A stretch of 38,384 bases of DNA from a bacterium (lineage in GTDB: Bacteria; Patescibacteriota; Minisyncoccia; Minisyncoccales; UBA1441): NCBI GenBank assembly GCA_029559515.1, contig JAKQBO010000009.1:1-38384 (forward strand), read 5' to 3'. The first letter of the stretch is position 1; each line of letters opens with the position of its first letter. Below are positions 10,745 through 23,053 of the stretch, one piece after another. Under the pieces are notes generated by a model. That model ran no database searches and was not told the DNA's origin. It saw only the letters and a list, made by a program, of their open reading frames with translations. The translations under genes were made by a program, and so were the position numbers.

Positions 10745-11731
10745 TTAAAAACTAAGATAAGTTCCTACTGAATAGCGAGCTAACGGATTTGTTGCCCCTC
10801 TGACGTCAAAGTGCAGATGGCATCCGGTTGACCGTCCAGTTGTGCCCATTCGGCCAATCTGCTGTCCTTGAGCAACGCTCTGGCCAGCCTTCACCCATAT
10901 CTCTGAAAGATGCCCGTAATAGGTAACTACTCCGTTAGGATGGAGGATTTGTACTCTATTTCCTCCGATACTAATGTATCCGGCTCGCTGGACCGTTCCG
11001 GCGGCCGCAGCATAAATCGGAGTACCGCATTGGTTCGCAATATCAATTGCATTATAATGGTGTAGCCCCTGGGTGATGCGACCAGAGGTCGGACGGATAA
11101 AATAAGAAGAGGCTACCGTTGACTGGGTGCTGATTTGAGGCGTGGTCAGTTGCTTGCCTCCGGGAATGATCAAAACGTCTCCAATATATATTTCATTGGC
11201 ATCACTTATCTGATTGAAAGAAAGAATTGCTGCCTCCGAAACTTTATAAGCGCGAGCAATGTGGCTGAGTGTTTCGTTTTTCCCGACTAAATGTAGCGCT
11301 CCTGAAACCGGCAAGATAATTAAGCTATCACCCTCTTTTAAGGTATTATTACGGTTAAGGTCGTTCGCCCAAGAGATCGTGTCAGCTGAAATTCCGAACC
11401 TTTCAGCTAGCCCAGAAACAGTGTCGCCGGACTGAACGACGTAGTTAAAGATTTGGCTTTGATAGTCATAGCCGCCAGCCACCACCGTGCCCAGAGCCTG
11501 ACTGGTCACACTGGGGGAGGTATAAACCTGAAGGCTGGACTGCTCAATTAAACTCAGATGAGAAAAATCAAAACTCGCCGTCTTATCCAAAGCTGGAATG
11601 AACTCGCTAGAAGAGCTTAGTTCATATTGATCAAAAACCAACTCGGACGGCGAGACCGGCCAAACAGCGGTTATTAGTAACCCTATCGCAAGAGTAAGAA
11701 AAGCACCAACTACTCTTTTTGACAGATGCAT
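10745..11731 (-). CDS. LysM (two repeats) plus M23 metallopeptidase, envelope-associated
   Basis: YVVQSGDTVSGLAERFGISADTISWANDLN and LHLVGKNETLSHIARAYKVSEAAILSFNQI; M23 core YNAIDIANQCGTPIYAAAAGTVQRAG...GCHLHFDVRG. Confidence 0.92.
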   Translation of the reverse strand: MHLSKRVVGAFLTLAIGLLITAVWPVSPSELVFDQYELSSSSEFIPALDKTASFDFSHLSLIEQSSLQVYTSPSVTSQALGTVVAGGYDYQSQIFNYVVQSGDTVSGLAERFGISADTISWANDLNRNNTLKEGDSLIILPVSGALHLVGKNETLSHIARAYKVSEAAILSFNQISDANEIYIGDVLIIPGGKQLTTPQISTQSTVASSYFIRPTSGRITQGLHHYNAIDIANQCGTPIYAAAAGTVQRAGYISIGGNRVQILHPNGVVTYYGHLSEIWVKAGQSVAQGQQIGRMGTTGRSTGCHLHFDVRGATNPLARYSVGTYLSF

Positions 11732-11770: not shown

Positions 11771-12612
11771 ACAAGTTATCCCCAATCGAACCTAATCTAG
11801 CTAACCACACTAGAAATTTGCTGAAGAAATACCAGCTGCGACCCAATAAACGTCTTGGGCAAAACTTTTTAATTGATGACCGCGTTTTAAATGATCTTCT
11901 TCAGGCAGCGGAGCTGACTTCTCAGGACACCGTTTTAGAGGTCGGTTCCGGCTTAGGCACCTTAACCCGGGCTCTCGCCCGCCGAGTTCGAAAGGTTATC
12001 TCTTTGGAAAAAGACCGCCGGCTAAACGATATTCTGGCCTCCGAATTAAATGAATTTGACAATGTTTCTATTCTCAATCAAGACATTCGGACTTTTCTGT
12101 CTCAAAAAGACATCCTCTTCGATAAAGTGGTGGCCAATCTGCCCTTTTATCTGACTTCGCCCCTAATTACCGGGTTGATGAAACTTTCGCCGCCTCCTTC
12201 CCTGATGGTTCTAATGGTTCAAAAGGAGGTGGCTGAAAGGATTTGCGCCCAGCCACCCAAGGCCAACCGAATGGCTGTTCTCTGCCAGATCCAGGCTAGG
12301 TGCCGGCTGGTTCGCCAGGTGCCGGCTCGGAGTTTTTGGCCCGCTCCCGAGGTAGACGCTGCCATCCTGAAGATGAACACATCTGGGATATCGCCCGATC
12401 CGCTTTTAGAAAAATTGGTTAATGCCGGTTTTCGTTCCCCTCGGAAGACCCTAGCTAACAACCTCTCTTCTTTTCCCGGCTTCAATCAAGAAATATTGGC
12501 ACAATGCAACCTAAACCCTAAAGTTCGAGCGGAGGCCTTGACTTTACAAGACTGGAAACATCTTAAAAATTGTTTTCTCGGCCAAAAAAATGTTATAATC
12601 AGGCCAATATGA
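11764..12612 (+). CDS. rsmA: 16S rRNA (adenine(1518)-N6/adenine(1519)-N6)-dimethyltransferase
   Basis: RPNKRLGQNFLIDDRVL, VLEVGSGLGTLTRALARR, VVANLPFYLTSPLI. Confidence 0.96.
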   Translation: MSNKLSPIEPNLANHTRNLLKKYQLRPNKRLGQNFLIDDRVLNDLLQAAELTSQDTVLEVGSGLGTLTRALARRVRKVISLEKDRRLNDILASELNEFDNVSILNQDIRTFLSQKDILFDKVVANLPFYLTSPLITGLMKLSPPPSLMVLMVQKEVAERICAQPPKANRMAVLCQIQARCRLVRQVPARSFWPAPEVDAAILKMNTSGISPDPLLEKLVNAGFRSPRKTLANNLSSFPGFNQEILAQCNLNPKVRAEALTLQDWKHLKNCFLGQKNVIIRPI

Positions 12613-15170
12613 AAAAGAAAACCTTCAGAAGAATTTGTTTTCTTTTGATTGCTATTCTGGCGGTGGTTTTATTTATTGCCCCTGAATTTGTTGGACAAGC
12701 CGAAGCTGACACAATATACGAGAATATCCCAATTGTAGGAGGGCAGGGCGAAGCACTTCCTTTCTGGGCTTGGATTAAAAGACTTGTCCAGGATTTCTTT
12801 TGGTCTCTCCTCTCGTTAGTGTTATTGGTGATTAATTCGGTTTTTCTTGGAGCATTGGCTGTTGCTGAGATGCTCTTTAACGTCATCGCCAGTCCTGGCT
12901 TTATTTCTGAATCATTTACCGGTCCTGACAACCCCTTTGTTTACCCGAACTGGGTTCTGATCCGTGATTTGGCGAATATTGGTATTATCCTGGGCGTTGT
13001 TTTTTGCGGATTGAAAATGGCCTTTGGTCTCGATAGCCGTGCAACGAAGAAGAGCCTAGTTACTCTCATTGCTTTAGCTTTTTTGATCAACTTTACACCT
13101 GTTTTACTCGGCCTTTTAATCGACGCGGCTCAAATTGCCATGAACCAATTTATGGGCCCGGGGTTGACTCAGACGACCGGCATGGCTTCGGGGGTAATGA
13201 AAGCTTTCGCGAATATAAGAGATATTGGAGAAAACCAGATGGTCGCCTTTATTCAGATGTTAACCATGGGAGCAGTCTGCTTGTTTTTGGCTTTTATATA
13301 CTTTGTTTTGGCTATTGTCTTCCTGGTTCGCTACATCGTCCTCTGGGTTTTAGTAATTCTTTCGCCACTGGCCTTTTTAGCCTACGCTTTTAAAGGTGGT
13401 CAGAAGATTTGGAATATGTGGTGGTCTAATTTTATTAGCTGGACTTTTATTGGCGTCCCCATTGCCTTTTTTGTCGCTTTGGCTGGCTGGATGTACGGCT
13501 ATGGCCAGCCTTTATGGGATACAACCGCCCGAAATATGGCTCTTCGAATAAGCGATGAGGGATTGGCTGGAAGTGGCGTTATTTCGTCTGAAGTTTTTGC
13601 GCCCATCTTCCCCGGCATATTAATTGTGATCGGGTTCATGATCAGCCTTAATATTGCCCCGGCTTTCGCTAAGACGGTCATGGATTATACCAAGAAAGGC
13701 GCTCATGGTGCTGCGGCCTGGAGCTGGGGCAAAGTTAGATACCGTACCCGCGATCTTCGAGACAAGAGTAGAAGAGAGGTCCACGCCCGGCACGTTAAGG
13801 AAGACGCTCAAGCTCTGGGCATCAACACTGCCGGCTGGGATGACCCTAAAAAGAGTTATGCTGTACGCGCTCAGGTGGCGAAAGAGCTGCAAGAAAGCAA
13901 CCAGGCTAAAGGAGCGCAGAAGGCTCATGCTGCCAGGTATCTCGACGTTCAGCAAAAGATCGATGAACGCAAGCTGGAGCACTCTCGATTCGCTAAGAAG
14001 TTAAAAGATGCTAGTGAAGAAGAGCTTGATGCTCTGATTTATCAGCCCACGCCTCAGCTTGTGCCGCACACCAAGACCGGGGTTGCCAAAAAGAGGGCTC
14101 TGGCTTTACAGGAAGCCATGAACCGGGATAAAGGCAAGGCCCTGAAAAAGTTCAAGAACCTTGCCTCGTTAAGCGAAGAAGAGATCTTACAGACAGCAGG
14201 TGCTTTTGCTAGCCTGGGGCCGGCTTATCAGGGCACCCTTGAAAATTTTCTGGTTGCGGCAAGCGGCAAGCATGGCAAAACAATTAAAGAGCATGAAGAA
14301 GCGCTCGGCATTGAGAAAGGATCCCTCGATAAGGCGATAAAGAAGCTTAGGGCCGAAGACAACGAGCTCTTGGCTCATGTGTACCAAAATGCTTCAGAGG
14401 AAAACCAACGGCTTCTTCTGGATAATTTGATTGAGGCCGATACCAAGACAATTATTAGCACTATCCGCCGATTAAAGGCAGAAGAGAGAGGGCCTTTTGC
14501 CTTTAAATTAAAAGAGGCTGCTGAAAGAGCCGGTGGCGTCAAAGCAAAAAATTTCCAACATACAGCAAGATTTCTTAATGCACAGTGGTATCTTACCGAC
14601 TATGAAAAAGATCTCACTCCAGAGGCCGACCAATCAAGGATGAAAATCAAACAGATAGTAGAACGGGCTAAGGTGATAGAAAAAGAGACAGACCAGGGCA
14701 AGAGACAGAAAGAGGTTGCTGAAATTGTTTCTAAAATCATCTCTTCGGACAATGAGCAACGATCAGAAATTATGAACCGCATAGCGCCCGTGGCTCCTTC
14801 GGTTCATCAAGAAGCTCTACAGGAAACCATAAGGAAAGAATTAATTGGCCGCGCTAAGCAGATTAGGCGTATGAAAGACGATCCCCGAATGGAGCAAGAA
14901 AGCAAAGACCTCTCGGCTAAGCTTGCCGAGGACTTAAAGAAGATCGGCCCAAAGCAATGGCAAGAATTCCTTAAGGAAGATTTAATCGAGCGCGTTTATG
15001 AATTCCAGCAGAAGATAAAAAACGCCAAGACTTTGGAAGAAAAGAAGAAACTAGGTAATCGCATGATGCAAAGAGATATCCTGGATGAGATTAGCCTTCT
15101 TAATTCTAAAGACCAAAAAGAGATTACTGATCTAATAAACAAAATTTATGATCAAGAAATCCCGGCATAA
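12609..15170 (+). CDS. VirB6/TrbL-like polytopic membrane protein with about 450-aa soluble helical C-terminal tail
   Basis: Start moved to MKKKTFRRICFLL (ATGA overlap with rsmA stop); signal peptide, several TM helices (IYFVLAIVFLVRYIVLWVLVILSPLAFLAYAF), then long charged helical region. Confidence 0.65.
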   Translation: MKKKTFRRICFLLIAILAVVLFIAPEFVGQAEADTIYENIPIVGGQGEALPFWAWIKRLVQDFFWSLLSLVLLVINSVFLGALAVAEMLFNVIASPGFISESFTGPDNPFVYPNWVLIRDLANIGIILGVVFCGLKMAFGLDSRATKKSLVTLIALAFLINFTPVLLGLLIDAAQIAMNQFMGPGLTQTTGMASGVMKAFANIRDIGENQMVAFIQMLTMGAVCLFLAFIYFVLAIVFLVRYIVLWVLVILSPLAFLAYAFKGGQKIWNMWWSNFISWTFIGVPIAFFVALAGWMYGYGQPLWDTTARNMALRISDEGLAGSGVISSEVFAPIFPGILIVIGFMISLNIAPAFAKTVMDYTKKGAHGAAAWSWGKVRYRTRDLRDKSRREVHARHVKEDAQALGINTAGWDDPKKSYAVRAQVAKELQESNQAKGAQKAHAARYLDVQQKIDERKLEHSRFAKKLKDASEEELDALIYQPTPQLVPHTKTGVAKKRALALQEAMNRDKGKALKKFKNLASLSEEEILQTAGAFASLGPAYQGTLENFLVAASGKHGKTIKEHEEALGIEKGSLDKAIKKLRAEDNELLAHVYQNASEENQRLLLDNLIEADTKTIISTIRRLKAEERGPFAFKLKEAAERAGGVKAKNFQHTARFLNAQWYLTDYEKDLTPEADQSRMKIKQIVERAKVIEKETDQGKRQKEVAEIVSKIISSDNEQRSEIMNRIAPVAPSVHQEALQETIRKELIGRAKQIRRMKDDPRMEQESKDLSAKLAEDLKKIGPKQWQEFLKEDLIERVYEFQQKIKNAKTLEEKKKLGNRMMQRDILDEISLLNSKDQKEITDLINKIYDQEIPA

Positions 15171-15616: not shown

Positions 15617-16036
15617 ATGCAGTATCTCGTTCCCCAATTTATTGAGCGCGAGTCTAAAATCGTCGGGCCTTTGAGCTTTAAACAGGTTATTTTTCTGGGT
15701 GCAGCTGGCGGACTAAGCCTGGCGGTCTGGTTTCTTTTGCCGACAGCCGTCGCCATGGTTCTTATCTGCCTGATTGTAGCCGCCGCCGTTGCTTTAGCCT
15801 TTTGGAAGCCACACGGGCGCCCGCTGGCTGAAATTATTGTTTCCGCCTTCCGCCATTCCATTTCGACTCGCCAATACTTATGGCGGAGACAATCAATTGA
15901 AGACCTGCCGATAATTAGCAGCGAAGACGAAAAGACAAACGATGTCAAACTTGACCTCGAAGACCAGCAGGCCTTGATGGAGCTTTCACCGCGGAGCCGG
16001 TTGGAAAAACTAAAAACCCGAATCGAATCTAAATAA
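15617..16036 (+). CDS. PrgI/VirB3-like T4SS membrane protein
   Basis: MQYLVPQFIERESKIVGPLSFKQVIFLGAAGGLSLAVWFLLP with two adjacent TM helices, PrgI-family layout. Confidence 0.8.
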   Translation: MQYLVPQFIERESKIVGPLSFKQVIFLGAAGGLSLAVWFLLPTAVAMVLICLIVAAAVALAFWKPHGRPLAEIIVSAFRHSISTRQYLWRRQSIEDLPIISSEDEKTNDVKLDLEDQQALMELSPRSRLEKLKTRIESK

Positions 16037-16038
16037 TC

Positions 16039-16692
16039 ATGAAAGGCTCGAGCCAACAATTTTTACCAATCGGCGAGATAAAAGAAGGGGTCCTCGTCCT
16101 TAAAAGTGGCGGCCTGAGGGGGATTTTAATGGTGTCGTCAATTAACTTCGCCTTAAAGTCGTCCGATGAACAGCAGGCCATTATTTATCAGTTTCAAAAT
16201 TTCCTGAATTCTCTTGATTTTACCACTCAAATTTTAGTTTACTCTCGGCGAGTGAATATGGCCGGTTATTTGGAAAAGCTAAAAAATCTAGAAGAGCGGC
16301 AAACCAACGACTTAATCAGAGCCCAGACGGCTGATTACCGCCGTTTTATTAAGCAGGTCTTAGAGAAGGGCGATATTATGAGTAAGACTTTTTATATTGT
16401 GGTTCCTTATACCCTGACTGAGGCTCAAGGAACGGTTTCAGCCACTCGAGAAATTTTCCGAAAAAAGAAGACTTCGCCAACCGGCTCCCGGATATCAAAC
16501 GAAGCATTTAATCGCGCCCGTTCCCAGTTGATGCAAAGAATGGAATTTGTCGCCATTGGTCTGAGACGGTGCCAGTTAGGGGCCGTTCCTTTGACCTCGC
16601 CGGAGCTAATTGAAATGCTTTGGGCTTTACACCACCCAGACTCAGCTGAACGGGGTTATTATCCGTCTATTATGCCGGAAATTATTAATTGA
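16039..16692 (+). CDS. TraC-like accessory/N-terminal domain protein upstream of VirB4
   Basis: FLPIGEIKEGVLVLKSGGLRGILMVSSINFALKSSDEQQAIIYQFQNFLNSLDFTTQILVYSRRVN resembles the VirB4/TraC N-terminal region. Confidence 0.65.
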   Translation: MKGSSQQFLPIGEIKEGVLVLKSGGLRGILMVSSINFALKSSDEQQAIIYQFQNFLNSLDFTTQILVYSRRVNMAGYLEKLKNLEERQTNDLIRAQTADYRRFIKQVLEKGDIMSKTFYIVVPYTLTEAQGTVSATREIFRKKKTSPTGSRISNEAFNRARSQLMQRMEFVAIGLRRCQLGAVPLTSPELIEMLWALHHPDSAERGYYPSIMPEIIN

Positions 16693-16694
16693 TT

Positions 16695-18509
16695 ATGTTA
16701 GATAAAATTAAGAAAAAACTTACCAAGGGAAGTAAGCCCGAGACTACCGGGGCCGGCAGTAGATTTGTCACCCTCCATGATTTAATTGCGCCTCCCTCGA
16801 TTCAAGTTAATCAGAACAGTATTGATTTAAGGGGGCGGCTAATTCGGACTATGTTTGTCTTCTCTTATCCCCGCTATCTGTCGGTTGGTTGGCTAACCCC
16901 GATTATTAACATGAATCGGCCGATAACAATCTCCTTTTTCTTTCACCCCGTTGAAACAGCCCCTATTCTTAAGAAACTCAGGAAAAAGACAACTGAAATC
17001 CAAGCCGAATTAATGGAACGCGAAGAGAAGGGCCTGGTCCGTGATCCGGAGCTAGAAACTGCCTTTCAGGATGTAGAAGATCTCCGCGACAAGTTGCGCA
17101 CTGCTCAGGAAAAAATGTTTCAGGTTGGTATTTACTTCGCCATTATGGGGAACAACGAAGAAGAGCTGCGCGATACCGAGGTGGAAATTCGTTCTATCTT
17201 AGAGTCCCGACTGGTTTACACCAAGCCAGCTTCCTTCCAACAAAAAGATGGGTTTTTAACTTGTTCGCCCTATGGTCTTGACGAGCTAATGATCCACACC
17301 CCTATGAATACCTCTCCCCTTTCCAGTGTTTTTCCTTTTGTTTCATTTGACTTGAGTTCTAATGAGGGCATTCTCTATGGTATTAATAAACATAATAATT
17401 CCCTAGTGCTTTTTGATCGCTTTTCACTGGAGAACGCTAACATGGTGATCTTTGGAAAATCAGGCGGCGGAAAAAGTTATGCCGCGAAACTAGAAATTCT
17501 GAGACTGATGATGGAAGGGATAGACGTAGTGATCGTGGATCCGGAGAATGAATATGAGTTTTTGAGCGATGCAGCTGATGGTTCTTTTGTCAAAGTCTCT
17601 CTTAACTCGACTAGCCACCTTAATCCCTTTGATTTACCTAAGATCGGAGTAGATGAAAAACCAGAAGACGCCCTGCGACGCAATGTTGTTGAGCTGGTCG
17701 GCCTATTTAGAATTATGTTGGGCGGACTGACACCCGAAGAAGATGCCATCATTGACCAGGCAATTGTTGAGACTTACGCCGCTAAAGACATTACGCCCGA
17801 TAACAACTTTGACAGAGCTCAGCCTCCCCTAATGAATGATTTCCAGGCTGTTTTAGAGAGCATGGAGGGGGCCGAGTCTCTCAGCCAGAGAACGCGTAAA
17901 TTTACCCGGGGCAGCTATGCCAATTTCTTTAATAACTACACCAATGTCGACATTGATCGCCATTTGGTTGTTTTTGGCATTCGTGATATGGAAGACGAAC
18001 TACGGCCCATGGCGATGTATATCATTCTCCACCACATCTGGAATGAAATAAGAGGAGAGTTAAAGAAAAGAGTTGTGGTCATTGACGAGGCCTGGGTGGT
18101 GATGCAGTCCCCAGATGGAGCTTCATTTCTTTTTGGGATGGCGAAGCGGGCCAGAAAGTACTGGCTTGGCCTGACAACTATTACCCAAGATGTCAATGAC
18201 TTTCTGGGCTCTCCTTATGGGGTGCCGATTCTCAACAACTCCTCCCTCCAGCTACTCATGAAACAGTCGCCGGCTTCAATTGATATTCTAGTTAAAACCT
18301 TTGCCTTAACTCTGAGCGAAAAACATCTAGTACTATCAAGTAATGTTGGCGAAGGGCTCTTCTTCGCCGGATCAAAGAGAGTCGCAGTTCAGGTTGTTGC
18401 TTCATACGCTGAAGACCAGATCATTACTAGCGACCCAGAGGAGGTAATTAAAATTAAAGAAGCGCAACGCGCTCGCAGGAGAGATGAGTTTATTAGGGGG
18501 TGGCGCTAA
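16695..18509 (+). CDS. VirB4/TraC-family T4SS ATPase
   Basis: Walker A VIFGKSGGGKSYAAKLEILR; VDPENEYEFL; Walker B KKRVVVIDEAWVVMQSPDGASFL; start taken as MLDKIKK. Confidence 0.92.
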   Translation: MLDKIKKKLTKGSKPETTGAGSRFVTLHDLIAPPSIQVNQNSIDLRGRLIRTMFVFSYPRYLSVGWLTPIINMNRPITISFFFHPVETAPILKKLRKKTTEIQAELMEREEKGLVRDPELETAFQDVEDLRDKLRTAQEKMFQVGIYFAIMGNNEEELRDTEVEIRSILESRLVYTKPASFQQKDGFLTCSPYGLDELMIHTPMNTSPLSSVFPFVSFDLSSNEGILYGINKHNNSLVLFDRFSLENANMVIFGKSGGGKSYAAKLEILRLMMEGIDVVIVDPENEYEFLSDAADGSFVKVSLNSTSHLNPFDLPKIGVDEKPEDALRRNVVELVGLFRIMLGGLTPEEDAIIDQAIVETYAAKDITPDNNFDRAQPPLMNDFQAVLESMEGAESLSQRTRKFTRGSYANFFNNYTNVDIDRHLVVFGIRDMEDELRPMAMYIILHHIWNEIRGELKKRVVVIDEAWVVMQSPDGASFLFGMAKRARKYWLGLTTITQDVNDFLGSPYGVPILNNSSLQLLMKQSPASIDILVKTFALTLSEKHLVLSSNVGEGLFFAGSKRVAVQVVASYAEDQIITSDPEEVIKIKEAQRARRRDEFIRGWR

Positions 18510-19035
18510 AAAAAGCCAGGGCGGATTGGAAACATTTACTATCGACATCGCGATTATGTATATTGTCGCCTTTATTTTGGATATGGCCGGAATAATCCTG
18601 GCGGCCATAACCCTTACTATTATCCTAGCTCCGATCGCGATAATCCTTCAATGGATTTTATCTCTCTTGGGTGGTCTGATATTCACCCTCTGGATTGTGT
18701 TTGTGCGGTCACAATCATCTGCCGAAGAAACAAGCCATGAAATTCTCGAGCCAGAAATACCCCAGAAGACAGCTCCTTCTCAGGCGTCATCTCTCGATGA
18801 TTCTGCGCCAAAAAAGCTAAATCAAGCCACCGAAGTACAGCCTACAGTAACGCCGCCTAAAAAACCTCTGGGGAAAAAACCGGGGCTTATGAAAAAATCC
18901 AACCCTTCTTCTTTGTTGATGAAAAAATGGCTGAAGAGAGTTTGCCTCCCCGGGGTGGTTGAGTCAATTCCGATTGTCGGGAAAATATCCTTCACCTGGG
19001 TATTAGCAGTCTATCTTGAGCAAAAAAATGGTTAA
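18484..19035 (+). CDS. small membrane protein of the T4SS-like cluster, unknown function
   Basis: Two to three N-terminal TM helices followed by a basic/Pro-rich segment; overlaps the virB4-like 3' end; preceded by an AGGAGA SD-like motif. Confidence 0.65.
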   Translation: MSLLGGGAKKSQGGLETFTIDIAIMYIVAFILDMAGIILAAITLTIILAPIAIILQWILSLLGGLIFTLWIVFVRSQSSAEETSHEILEPEIPQKTAPSQASSLDDSAPKKLNQATEVQPTVTPPKKPLGKKPGLMKKSNPSSLLMKKWLKRVCLPGVVESIPIVGKISFTWVLAVYLEQKNG

Positions 19036-21562
19036 GATGCATTTTTTAATAAAAATTTTAATTTTTGCTTTGATTATTTGCCCGGCTAGTGTTCTGGCGG
19101 TGGAAATTCCCAGCGACGATATTGAGACCCTGCCCGAACTGGTTAACACCGTCTTTAGCGTCATATTCGGCTTGTCCGGCATAGCAATCTTCGTTGTTTT
19201 AATAATTGGCGGATTGGGCTATTTAACCGCCGGCGGATCACCGATGTTAATGGCTAAGGCCCGACAAAGGATTATTATGGGCCTGGTTGGATTTGGGTTG
19301 GTTTTTGGCGGCTACCTCATTATCGACCAAATAAATCCTGACATTTTGACCGGAATCTTTACGCCTTGGGATATCGATAACCCCGAGCCGTCCGACCCTC
19401 CAACGATACGGGAACCGGATACTGACACGTATGTCTATCAGGAGATCCCCTTCGGGACAATTTTAGAGACCAAAATATTAGCTAAAAACATAACCTGCTA
19501 TGGGGGAGAAGGGTTGGTTGACTGCCACACTGGGGAGCCGATATTAGAAGAAGAAATTGAGCGGATTATTTATATTATGGCCAAAGAATTCCCTGATATC
19601 TGGGGTGAGGCAACCAAAGAAGACGCCGAATTGGCCTACCTCTGCTACGACTTTGACGACCAGGGAAACTTTACTCAGACCGATCCAATAGGGCACAACG
19701 ACCGGCTTGACTGCATTAGGCGCGTTGTCCAGGCTTTTGAGAGAAAAAGCATGGCCTTAAACAATCAAGTCCTTGAATTAAAAAGACTAACTGAAGCATG
19801 TTCCTGCGGACAGTGTAATTGCGGAGAGTGCGCTGTCTGCGAAGACCCGGCAGAGGTTTGTGGCAACCCTGAGGAATGCGCGCCAGAGGATGAAGCCTGC
19901 TTGCTGGCTATTCAACAGTGCTGGGATTATTGGGAAAACTGTAGTCCATGCGACCCGGCCTATAATAGCACTTGCCCCTGTGGGCAATCCTGCGATGGCG
20001 ATCCATGTGGGGCTCAGCGAGCAGCCATAGACGTTATTCGCCAAAATTTAAACATGGAACAAATCGTTGGAGGACATGATCTGCTCCAAGACAACGAGCT
20101 CGTCAAAGTTTTACCCGAAGATTATGATGAGATGACCTTAATCAACCAGGTGCGCTATCTAGCTAACCGTTTTTTCCCACCCCACATTGCCAGTCTTGAA
20201 GTTGATTTAAGTTATTTAGTTAAGGTCCGGGATATGTATCGAGACCAGTGTAGCTACGGCACTCACCTTTCCCAAGCTAATTTTATGGACTTAATAGCAT
20301 CTCTGGACTCGATTCCTTATGTTGAAACAGAGGTTAACAAGTTTTGTCTTAACGGCAACGAGGCTCGCTGGGGAGAGAGTTGCCCCGAGGAGCAACAAGT
20401 CAGAACAGATTACTGGTGCCACGAATTCAACTGCACCGACTGCGAAGAAGAAGGCGAAGCAAAGCTAGCTTGCGGTGTTTGCAATCTTGACGTTTTAGAA
20501 AAAGGGACTGAGGTGCCTTTTGCTCGGGCCGGTGAAGACAATGTTTCTTACAAGTGTTCCCAATACTATATTAACCAACAAGATGGAGAATTAGACCGGG
20601 AAGCCGACGACGAGCTTGGCATTATGTGCCGTATTCAATCAGATGGCGAACGCTGCCAGGAATCAACCGGCAATCCGGTAACCTTCTACTGTCCTCAGCC
20701 TGAAAGCAATGTTCCGGTCGAAACAACCGAACTAGTCTTAACTCGAGAATTCAACATTGATCACGATGTAGTCAATGGTTACCGAGCTGGCTATATTGAG
20801 CTGGGCCAATTGATTGACAGCAGCCGAGCCTATATCGATGCAATCAGAGCCCCCTTGGTGGGGATGGTTCGGAACGGCGTTCCTAGAATTACCTGTCCTT
20901 CTTTTGATAAAAATGACCCGGATAACCTCTGCCTCTTGTATCTCTTGCCAACGCGATGTACCTGCAATGGCGTCATCCAGACCCAGTACGAACCAGGGGA
21001 TGAATCGCTCTGCAATATCTCTTGCGACACCTGGCACGGCTGTTTGTGTAACGCCTGTGCGGAACCCTGCGATGGCTGCTCTTGTTCAACCTGCCTGCCC
21101 ACTCTTAATCAGCCCGAGGAATATAATCCTTATCCCTGCCCCCAGACTGTTATTAATCAGAGACAAGGCGAAACCACTAATGCTTATGGATTAATCAGGG
21201 AACAGCACGATACTGTTGTTAGCTTAATTCGAGCCACTGGTTTAGCCAACAATCAGCCAAGCCGGACAGAGATGTTTAATCAGCTTCAGGACAGCCAGAA
21301 AAAGTTGCAACGATGCGTTAGTGGCTTCCAGGTTGATTATACTGAAAGAACCGTTGCCCGGGCCGTTAACTGTCGCTATTTGTTGGACAATCAAGCTTTA
21401 GATAAGTGGCAGATTAGTCCCTTTTTCGAAACGTGCTATCCTTATAACAGTGAGAGATTGACCCCTCAGCAGCGAGCTGCCTGTCAGGCTGATCGCAATA
21501 GTCAGGATTGTTTATCTGCTATTCGTAATTTAATGTTTGACTATTTCTGCCTTATAAAATAA
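19028..21562 (+). CDS. VirB2/TrbC-like pilin-type membrane protein with large cysteine-rich exodomain
   Basis: Signal-peptide-like N-terminus, TM hairpin VFSVIFGLSGIAIFVVLIIGGLGYLTAGGSPMLMAKARQRIIMGLVGFGLVFGGYLII, then about 700 aa containing roughly 50 Cys. Confidence 0.75.
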   Translation: MVKMHFLIKILIFALIICPASVLAVEIPSDDIETLPELVNTVFSVIFGLSGIAIFVVLIIGGLGYLTAGGSPMLMAKARQRIIMGLVGFGLVFGGYLIIDQINPDILTGIFTPWDIDNPEPSDPPTIREPDTDTYVYQEIPFGTILETKILAKNITCYGGEGLVDCHTGEPILEEEIERIIYIMAKEFPDIWGEATKEDAELAYLCYDFDDQGNFTQTDPIGHNDRLDCIRRVVQAFERKSMALNNQVLELKRLTEACSCGQCNCGECAVCEDPAEVCGNPEECAPEDEACLLAIQQCWDYWENCSPCDPAYNSTCPCGQSCDGDPCGAQRAAIDVIRQNLNMEQIVGGHDLLQDNELVKVLPEDYDEMTLINQVRYLANRFFPPHIASLEVDLSYLVKVRDMYRDQCSYGTHLSQANFMDLIASLDSIPYVETEVNKFCLNGNEARWGESCPEEQQVRTDYWCHEFNCTDCEEEGEAKLACGVCNLDVLEKGTEVPFARAGEDNVSYKCSQYYINQQDGELDREADDELGIMCRIQSDGERCQESTGNPVTFYCPQPESNVPVETTELVLTREFNIDHDVVNGYRAGYIELGQLIDSSRAYIDAIRAPLVGMVRNGVPRITCPSFDKNDPDNLCLLYLLPTRCTCNGVIQTQYEPGDESLCNISCDTWHGCLCNACAEPCDGCSCSTCLPTLNQPEEYNPYPCPQTVINQRQGETTNAYGLIREQHDTVVSLIRATGLANNQPSRTEMFNQLQDSQKKLQRCVSGFQVDYTERTVARAVNCRYLLDNQALDKWQISPFFETCYPYNSERLTPQQRAACQADRNSQDCLSAIRNLMFDYFCLIK

Positions 21563-21568
21563 TCAATT

Positions 21569-23053
21569 ATGCCTAAAAATATATTATTTTTTGCTTTAAC
21601 TGCCTTATTGTTTTTATCTCCATTAGTCGTAGTCGGCGACGCCCAGGTTCGTCAGTTAGAAACAACCTACCCCGACATTCCCGGGGTTGATACCATTGGA
21701 GAAGACGCTACTCTACCGCAATATCTAGAGTATATTTATTATTTCATTATTAGCTTAACTGGGATTGCCGCCTTGATTATATTGATCTGGGGCGGGTTAA
21801 TTTATTTAACCTCAGCCGGTTCGCCCAATAAAATGAAGGAGGGTATTAATCGTATTATTGGCGGACTATCCGGCGTTGCTATTATTTTATTCGCTCACCT
21901 CATTTTAACCACAATCAATCCCCATATCTTTGGCTCAATTACTCAAAAAATAGATCTTCCCGCTGAAGGATATTGCTTAAAAGGAGACCAGGTCTACTGG
22001 CGAGAAGAGTGTCCCGAGACATGGGCTCCTATAAACAATGATACTTGTCAGCAGGTAATCGGCCAAGCTCCTTATACCCACTATAACTGCTGCCGGGTTG
22101 AGAGAATCTATTGTTTCGATCAAAGCGTCAATGATTTGGCTAGAATTGGTTTTATCCCTAAGGAGATAAACTTCCGGAGCAAAGAGCCAAGAATTCACAG
22201 TGTCTTTTTCTTTGAAGAGCCCGATTACCAGGGAGATCAACAGTCTATGATAAACATGAAGAGACAGCTAAACAATGACATTTGGTGGCCGCTTAGTCAC
22301 CTCGGAATTCAGTTTATCAGATCTGTGTATCCAGTAAGGAGAAGCCCCGGGTTTGTTATCTTTCCTACTGACAATTGTTCGTATGATTTTAGCGATTTTA
22401 GTCGCAATATGCCGACTATGGCCTACTCTCGACCAACTTCTCGTTTTGACAAAGAGGCCGTTTCCATATTAAGAGTGCCCCGAGGCGAAGATGAGGATTG
22501 GTTTGATTATGTTTCGTGGGGAGGGGTGTTTTTCTCCTCCGAGGGATATCACGGAGAGTGTCAGATTATTTTTAGCGAAAGGCCTTCTATTCCCGGACAG
22601 GGCCAGAACTGTTTCCTTCCTAGACAGAATTTTCCGAATGCTCAAATTGGCAGTAGAGAGACCCCTCAGAGCGCTTACATCTTTAGACGAAACATCGCTA
22701 ATGATTTTTCAGGCCAAGTCACCTTTTGCCCTTTATTGAATTATGGATCTATAGAGGATCCCAATAATCCGGTTGAATGCCATACTGTTGAAGCTAGTGA
22801 GATTATAAGCCAAAACACAACTGACTCTATCTGGAGAATTAATGATCCGTTAGATCACTGGACGGGAGGAAGACAAGAAAACATTCTTTCTGTAAAAGTT
22901 GACGGAAAATTTCTGGTTGTTCTAAATTCTGGACTAAATTTCACAGGAAGATGTACAGTTATCGATCGAGATACCCCCAATCTAATTGGCTCATATGTTC
23001 TTGGAGACGAAAATCGTGAGATCATGTCCATCGCCATCATCCCCTTACAATAA
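21569..23053 (+). CDS. VirB2/TrbC-like pilin-type membrane protein with beta/gamma-crystallin-like exodomain
   Basis: Signal peptide, TM hairpin FIISLTGIAALIILIWGGLIYLTSAGSPNKMKEGINRIIGGLSGVAIILFAHLIL; repeated Y/F-x(n)-F/Y-x-G Greek-key-like motifs downstream. Confidence 0.7.
   Translation: MPKNILFFALTALLFLSPLVVVGDAQVRQLETTYPDIPGVDTIGEDATLPQYLEYIYYFIISLTGIAALIILIWGGLIYLTSAGSPNKMKEGINRIIGGLSGVAIILFAHLILTTINPHIFGSITQKIDLPAEGYCLKGDQVYWREECPETWAPINNDTCQQVIGQAPYTHYNCCRVERIYCFDQSVNDLARIGFIPKEINFRSKEPRIHSVFFFEEPDYQGDQQSMINMKRQLNNDIWWPLSHLGIQFIRSVYPVRRSPGFVIFPTDNCSYDFSDFSRNMPTMAYSRPTSRFDKEAVSILRVPRGEDEDWFDYVSWGGVFFSSEGYHGECQIIFSERPSIPGQGQNCFLPRQNFPNAQIGSRETPQSAYIFRRNIANDFSGQVTFCPLLNYGSIEDPNNPVECHTVEASEIISQNTTDSIWRINDPLDHWTGGRQENILSVKVDGKFLVVLNSGLNFTGRCTVIDRDTPNLIGSYVLGDENREIMSIAIIPLQ

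Follow-up and report, generated by a model that had tools for sequence, protein, structure and literature searches.

A T4SS pilin hairpin with a β/γ-crystallin-like head in one order of Patescibacteria: a candidate for contact with partner cells

How does the T4SS of Patescibacteria, tiny bacteria that probably depend on a host, make contact with another cell? Where this machine has been tested, namely in cultivated Saccharibacteria, epibiotic growth cannot do without the T4SS and its pilins (PMC10633639, PMC12857230), a dependence described for S. epibionticum (PMC10633639). A survey of Patescibacterial T4SSs describes pilin arrays and proximity to oriC, and did not find a PrgB-type adhesin (PMC12102498). 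The machine comes without a known contact protein; at stake are both the choice and the holding of a host. The question is raised in a concrete form by the stretch of DNA analysed here (38,384 nucleotides, hereafter the window), taken from a genome of 457 kb in 27 contigs. In it, an ORF of the T4SS cluster encodes a protein for which the initial annotation proposed a crystallin-like external domain on a VirB2/TrbC-type membrane hairpin.

The ORF is real, and all the strings quoted from it at the outset are found in its translation. Its N-terminal part combines the features of a T4SS_pilin protein – a signal peptide, a two-helix hairpin and a location in a T4SS cluster – with a match of residues 51–116 to Pfam PF18895 (E=7.6e-8, 32.8 bits against a curated cut-off of 26.6; 36.9 bits in the genome-wide search). 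The two membrane helices are joined by a basic loop, SPNKMKEGINR, and, because of the positive-inside rule, the ~375 residues past the hairpin are predicted to be extracellular. A hairpin of the pilin type is therefore present, as proposed, but the match to PF18895 does not establish VirB2/TrbC proper. Signal peptide, two-helix hairpin, tandem genes and an oriC-near T4SS cluster are all shared with PF18895/VirB2-like pilins and Patescibacterial pilin arrays (PMC12102498, PMC10633639). However, typical VirB2 major pilins are small and consist of the hairpin only, whereas the window protein has 494 residues and carries most of its mass in the head. The features of the locus are collected in Table 1.

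Table 1. Features of the T4SS cluster in the window and of its crystallin-headed protein
Feature	Position	Strand	Basis
Large polytopic membrane protein, VirB6-like	12570..15170	+	Position and hydrophobicity, conserved place; no Pfam match
PrgI (VirB3-like)	15617..16036	+	PF12666, E=2.4e-13
ORF on its own, taken as the N-terminal part of VirB4	16039..16692	+	Position; conserved as a separate ORF in relatives
VirB4/TraG-type ATPase, larger part	16689..18509	+	P-loop_TraG, PF19044, E=1.3e-24
Small membrane protein within the cluster	18484..19035	+	Recognisable at the same place in genomes G001 and G005
Sister pilin-hairpin protein, 848 aa, with a different, Cys-rich head	19016..21562	+	PF18895 over cut-off; two-pilin order kept in nearly all relatives
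Crystallin-headed T4SS-pilin protein, 494 aa	21569..23053	+	ORF conserved; 48% identical same-genus relative
Signal peptide, residues ~1–26	21569..21646	+	Basic n-region, hydrophobic stretch 2–27
T4SS_pilin hairpin, residues 51–116, two membrane helices	21719..21916	+	PF18895 above cut-off; hydrophobic windows 53–85 and 93–118
Cys-rich linker joining hairpin to head, residues 119–177	21923..22099	+	pLDDT <50 in the 14-sequence model; Cys 136, 148, 160, 174, 175
Crystallin domain I, residues ~178–258	22100..22342	+	Motif FEEPDYQG at 215; alignment, AlphaFold, repeat comparison
Crystallin domain II, residues ~259–377	22343..22699	+	Motifs PGFVIFPTDNCSY and FSSEGYHG; alignment, AlphaFold, repeat comparison
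Crystallin domain III, residues ~378–494	22700..23050	+	Motifs QVTFCPLLNYG and FLVVLNSGLNFTG; alignment, AlphaFold, repeat comparison

What the head consists of is not apparent from the window protein taken alone, which has no crystallin match in Pfam (including PF00030, Crystall), in the PDB by phmmer or in NCBIfam; these single-sequence misses are not counted as negative evidence, because family profiles detect the fold. Built from 14 heads, a profile matches Protein S in the PDB at 9.6e-9. As a control for circularity, a 30-sequence profile was built that excludes the window protein and its closest relative: 48 of its 49 PDB matches (E<=1) are β/γ-crystallins – a count that includes 3hzb, deposited as a 'carbohydrate binding protein', which we take to be a crystallin – with Protein S at E=4.9e-6. 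A larger leave-out profile recognises the window head at E=1e-34, against 0.28 for the best of 2000 shuffled copies. The relatives had been gathered with a profile that included the window protein, which introduces a mild circularity, though the best of them are individually strong. The Crystall profile by which the fold was to be checked leaves the window protein unmatched but matches 15 of 60 relatives taken singly (E<=0.1, best 3.7e-6), and a bridge is provided by a relative from the wider phylum, matched by the family profile at E=1.9e-21, whose own domains pass Crystall at E=3.5e-14. Matches to 2gwm, BNI1 and Nudix proteins in the PDB profile searches, weak and inconsistent between profiles, were set aside as noise.

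The predicted structure gives the same answer. An AlphaFold model of residues 169–494 built with 60 relatives (pLDDT 80.9, pTM 0.82) contains a Greek-key sandwich, and all 50 matches listed by Foldseek against the PDB are β- or γ-crystallins, two of them engineered from one (probability 1.00, lowest E 2.3e-5, highest target-normalised TM 0.72); a shallower model from 14 sequences, with a pLDDT of 62, likewise led Foldseek to crystallins. Together with the PDB profile matches, the Crystall matches of relatives and the internal repeats described below, this bears out the proposed crystallin-like head on a pilin-type hairpin, and we are close to certain of both the fold and the fusion. A chance pattern of aromatic and glycine residues might be suspected from the empty single-sequence searches, and from the fact that Crystall finds nothing above its curated cut-off in 60 genomes of the order – a blindness that would also explain why the head is absent from annotation. 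However, the leave-out profile, the PDB profile matches, AlphaFold and Foldseek are all concordant, which makes such a coincidence extremely improbable.

Three tandem crystallin domains are the best reading of the head (residues ~178–494, positions 22100–23050): six Greek keys are visible in the family alignment and pair best in this way, the domain borders being a reading of alignment and secondary structure rather than a computed parse. Profile comparison points to internal duplication, with P=4.6e-7 for domain I against II and P=1.4e-14 for II against III; it gives no such support for I against III, which align over 13 columns only. The stretch originally assigned to the crystallin-like part, 22202–22955, lies inside the head but covers only residues 212–462 of it. 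Of the four Greek-key signatures initially claimed, the presence of Greek keys stands, but their number is six, one signature was misassigned and two were missed: according to the family alignment, AYIFRRNIANDFSGQ comprises the final strand of a Greek key and the linker that leads to the following one, whereas PGFVIFPTDNCSY (260–272) and QVTFCPLLNYG (383–393) are motifs that had been overlooked. FLVVLNSGLNFTGRC (448–462) is a Greek-key motif in which the first aromatic residue is substituted. The signature [FYW]x4[FYW]xG occurs three times in residues 120–494, against 0.37 in shuffles (P=0.005); two of these matches, FEEPDYQG (215) and FSSEGYHG (322), are genuine Greek-key motifs, while FDYVSWGG at 312 was rejected as one.

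Microbial β/γ-crystallins typically have canonical calcium motifs, and the calcium site stabilises many of them; the motif, [DN][DN]xx[ST]S, is nevertheless missing from many other crystallins, hence no requirement for membership. In the window protein it was rightly described as degenerate, with no copy left. It survives in 21 of 83 family sequences, among them the head in L037 (FNNKATS), with 27 copies in all where shuffles give 5.4 on average and 13 at most. The window head shares the Greek-key crystallin domains of Protein S (Myxococcus xanthus, 1prr), 3hzb, clostrillin and spherulin 3a – Protein S and the microbial crystallins being the best profile matches, and the domains of Protein S being in tandem too – but has lost the canonical calcium motif typical of the Protein S type and, unlike any of these four, is fused to a membrane-anchored pilin hairpin.

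Is this fusion tied to the secretion machine? Gene neighbourhoods were compared between the window and 21 other loci. In all but one of them, truncated by the end of its contig, the crystallin-headed genes – one to three per locus, in tandem – adjoin a pilin gene with another long, non-crystallin head. The usual order is VirB6–PrgI–VirB4–pilin (other head)–pilin (crystallin head), mostly within one cluster, which in most loci converges on jag–yidC–rnpA–dnaA near oriC; the names of these four genes and of VirB6 are readings of sequence and conserved position, made without a profile test. As exceptions, the cluster lies elsewhere in some genomes, or VirB4 falls beyond the fetched stretch. From this linkage, the crystallin-headed protein is probably a part of the T4SS. 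VirB4 is seemingly split into two adjacent ORFs (16039–16692 and 16689–18509), a state shared by relatives across families; because the first has no Pfam match, its naming as the N-terminal part is provisional. The neighbouring sister pilin (19016–21562) has a Cys-rich head of ~720 residues with CxCxxC-like clusters, for which a comparison with the PDB matched no solved structure. A LysM and Peptidase_M23 protein on the opposite strand (10745–11731, -), a possible partner in wall remodelling, also adjoins the cluster.

The architecture had been called unusual, yet within its order it is common: the head was detected in 113 of 230 genomes. The hairpin accompanies it in 89 of 92 head-bearing ORFs, the other three being truncated where the contig or locus stops, and is also present in several larger variants of 550–960 aa and more. 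Among 60 related genomes, one protein from the same genus is 48% identical, one distant protein aligns past the hairpin, and many of the remaining matches have, on reading, similar heads. With the window protein as lone query, the related-locus search returned no loci; a closer alignment as query led to five named records with related heads, from Parcubacteria-type MAGs including Ca. Nealsonbacteria. Across the phylum, a spread of 381 genomes gave only eight matches, five of them from the same order, while the three from outside it have no detected hairpin in the stretch read, one of them having textbook crystallin domains; the fusion of pilin and crystallin therefore seems peculiar to this order. 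Several canonical crystallin domains occur in one very large phylum relative (L134), which also has an Ig-like domain and a lipase-like α/β-hydrolase part. No literature joining crystallin domains with T4SS pilins was found among open-licence PMC papers, nor was a mention of crystallin domains or heads found in the searched text of PMC12102498 and PMC10633639. The crystallin fold gains a new setting, one that escapes standard domain models throughout a whole order.

In sequence, the heads for the most part diverge far more quickly than VirB4, DnaA and the hairpin. Between two genomes of one genus (G005 and G104), identity is 92% for VirB4, 94% for DnaA and 80% for the hairpin but 42% at best for the head; between the window and G001, the corresponding values are 88%, 87%, 65% and 45%. 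The contrast is smaller between G044 and G131 (head 74–76%, VirB6 75%), and fast divergence also fits relaxed constraint.

A precedent for crystallin domains in adhesion exists in RbmC, whose tandem crystallin domains are mucin-binding adhesin modules (PMC10102183, PMC10903470). The likeness – tandem crystallin domains as surface adhesin modules (PMC10102183) – is one of description rather than of sequence comparison, and RbmC differs in being a biofilm-matrix protein with other adhesive domains and with neither T4SS nor hairpin. Given this precedent, the probable surface exposure and the divergence of the heads, a role in partner contact appears the most likely one for the head, and we give it somewhat better than even chances. 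The signal peptide and pilin-type hairpin would insert the protein into the membrane, possibly into a T4SS pilus or the base of one, and leave the C-terminal head outside the cell; there, the three crystallin domains would serve as a rigid scaffold with quickly varying sequence. Along with the adjacent Cys-rich pilin, the head most probably makes up the outward portion of the T4SS that contacts the target, and would bind glycans or proteins on the surface of a host or partner cell. The explanation as a whole – a displayed, partner-contacting head of a Patescibacterial T4SS – is favoured, though with reservations. Two headless pilins elsewhere in the same genome speak against it, as does the loss of the calcium site typical of many microbial crystallins. 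Moreover, a head of ~375 residues would be bulky on every pilus subunit, so that the protein may be a minor subunit or stand outside any pilus. A detectable head of this type is missing from half of the genomes in the order, so the T4SS does not depend on it.

The main rival to the partner-contact reading is that the head belongs to the structure of the outer channel, with the domains packed round it outside the membrane and spanning the cell wall or S-layer without binding a partner. Crystallin domains form stable stacks, the gene has a fixed place beside VirB4 and a second large-headed pilin, and an outer scaffold has not been identified in this locus; yet heads that diverge far faster than the machine, vary in copy number from one to three and are lacking in about half of the order's genomes do not sit well with such a part, which we consider rather unlikely. 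It is less likely still that the pilin hairpin has been reused as a mere membrane anchor for a surface protein that never joins the T4SS: the gene is locked into the T4SS cluster across families, even if the hairpin bears many heads in the order – dockerin-like and, more weakly, M23-, glucosaminidase- and C39-like – and headless pilins also occur in the genome. I36 peptidase inhibitors share the crystallin fold, and the Cys-rich, compact head could be imagined as an inhibitor of host proteases or a coat that protects against them, all the more as weak matches to Inhibitor_I36 are seen in 8 of 60 relatives (best E=0.00098). However, Crystall is matched by more relatives and more strongly (15, best 3.7e-6) and linkage to a T4SS would be unexpected for an inhibitor, which leaves this reading with little probability.

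The conserved, oriC-linked and fast-diverging crystallin-headed pilin is a concrete, expressible candidate for host contact. A broader proposal, which we put forward tentatively and at less than even odds, is that in this one order the T4SS pilin has become a modular display platform whose fast-evolving, interchangeable heads decide on the host cell and represent the missing T4SS adhesin; equally tentative is its component that triple β/γ-crystallins are a major kind of head on the conserved hairpin. Among other heads on the same hairpin in the order, the C-terminal parts in four loci (L008, L020, L022 and L032) include dockerin-like matches over the cut-off, as well as weak ones to Peptidase_M23, Peptidase_C39 and Glucosaminidase that stay below it, in part truncated where the locus ends. 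The window's own genome (G000) encodes three further T4SS pilins elsewhere (L003, 69–911, and L004, 1249–2337, on contigs C5 and C13), namely two headless ones in tandem (116 and 155 aa) and one of 362 aa with yet another head.
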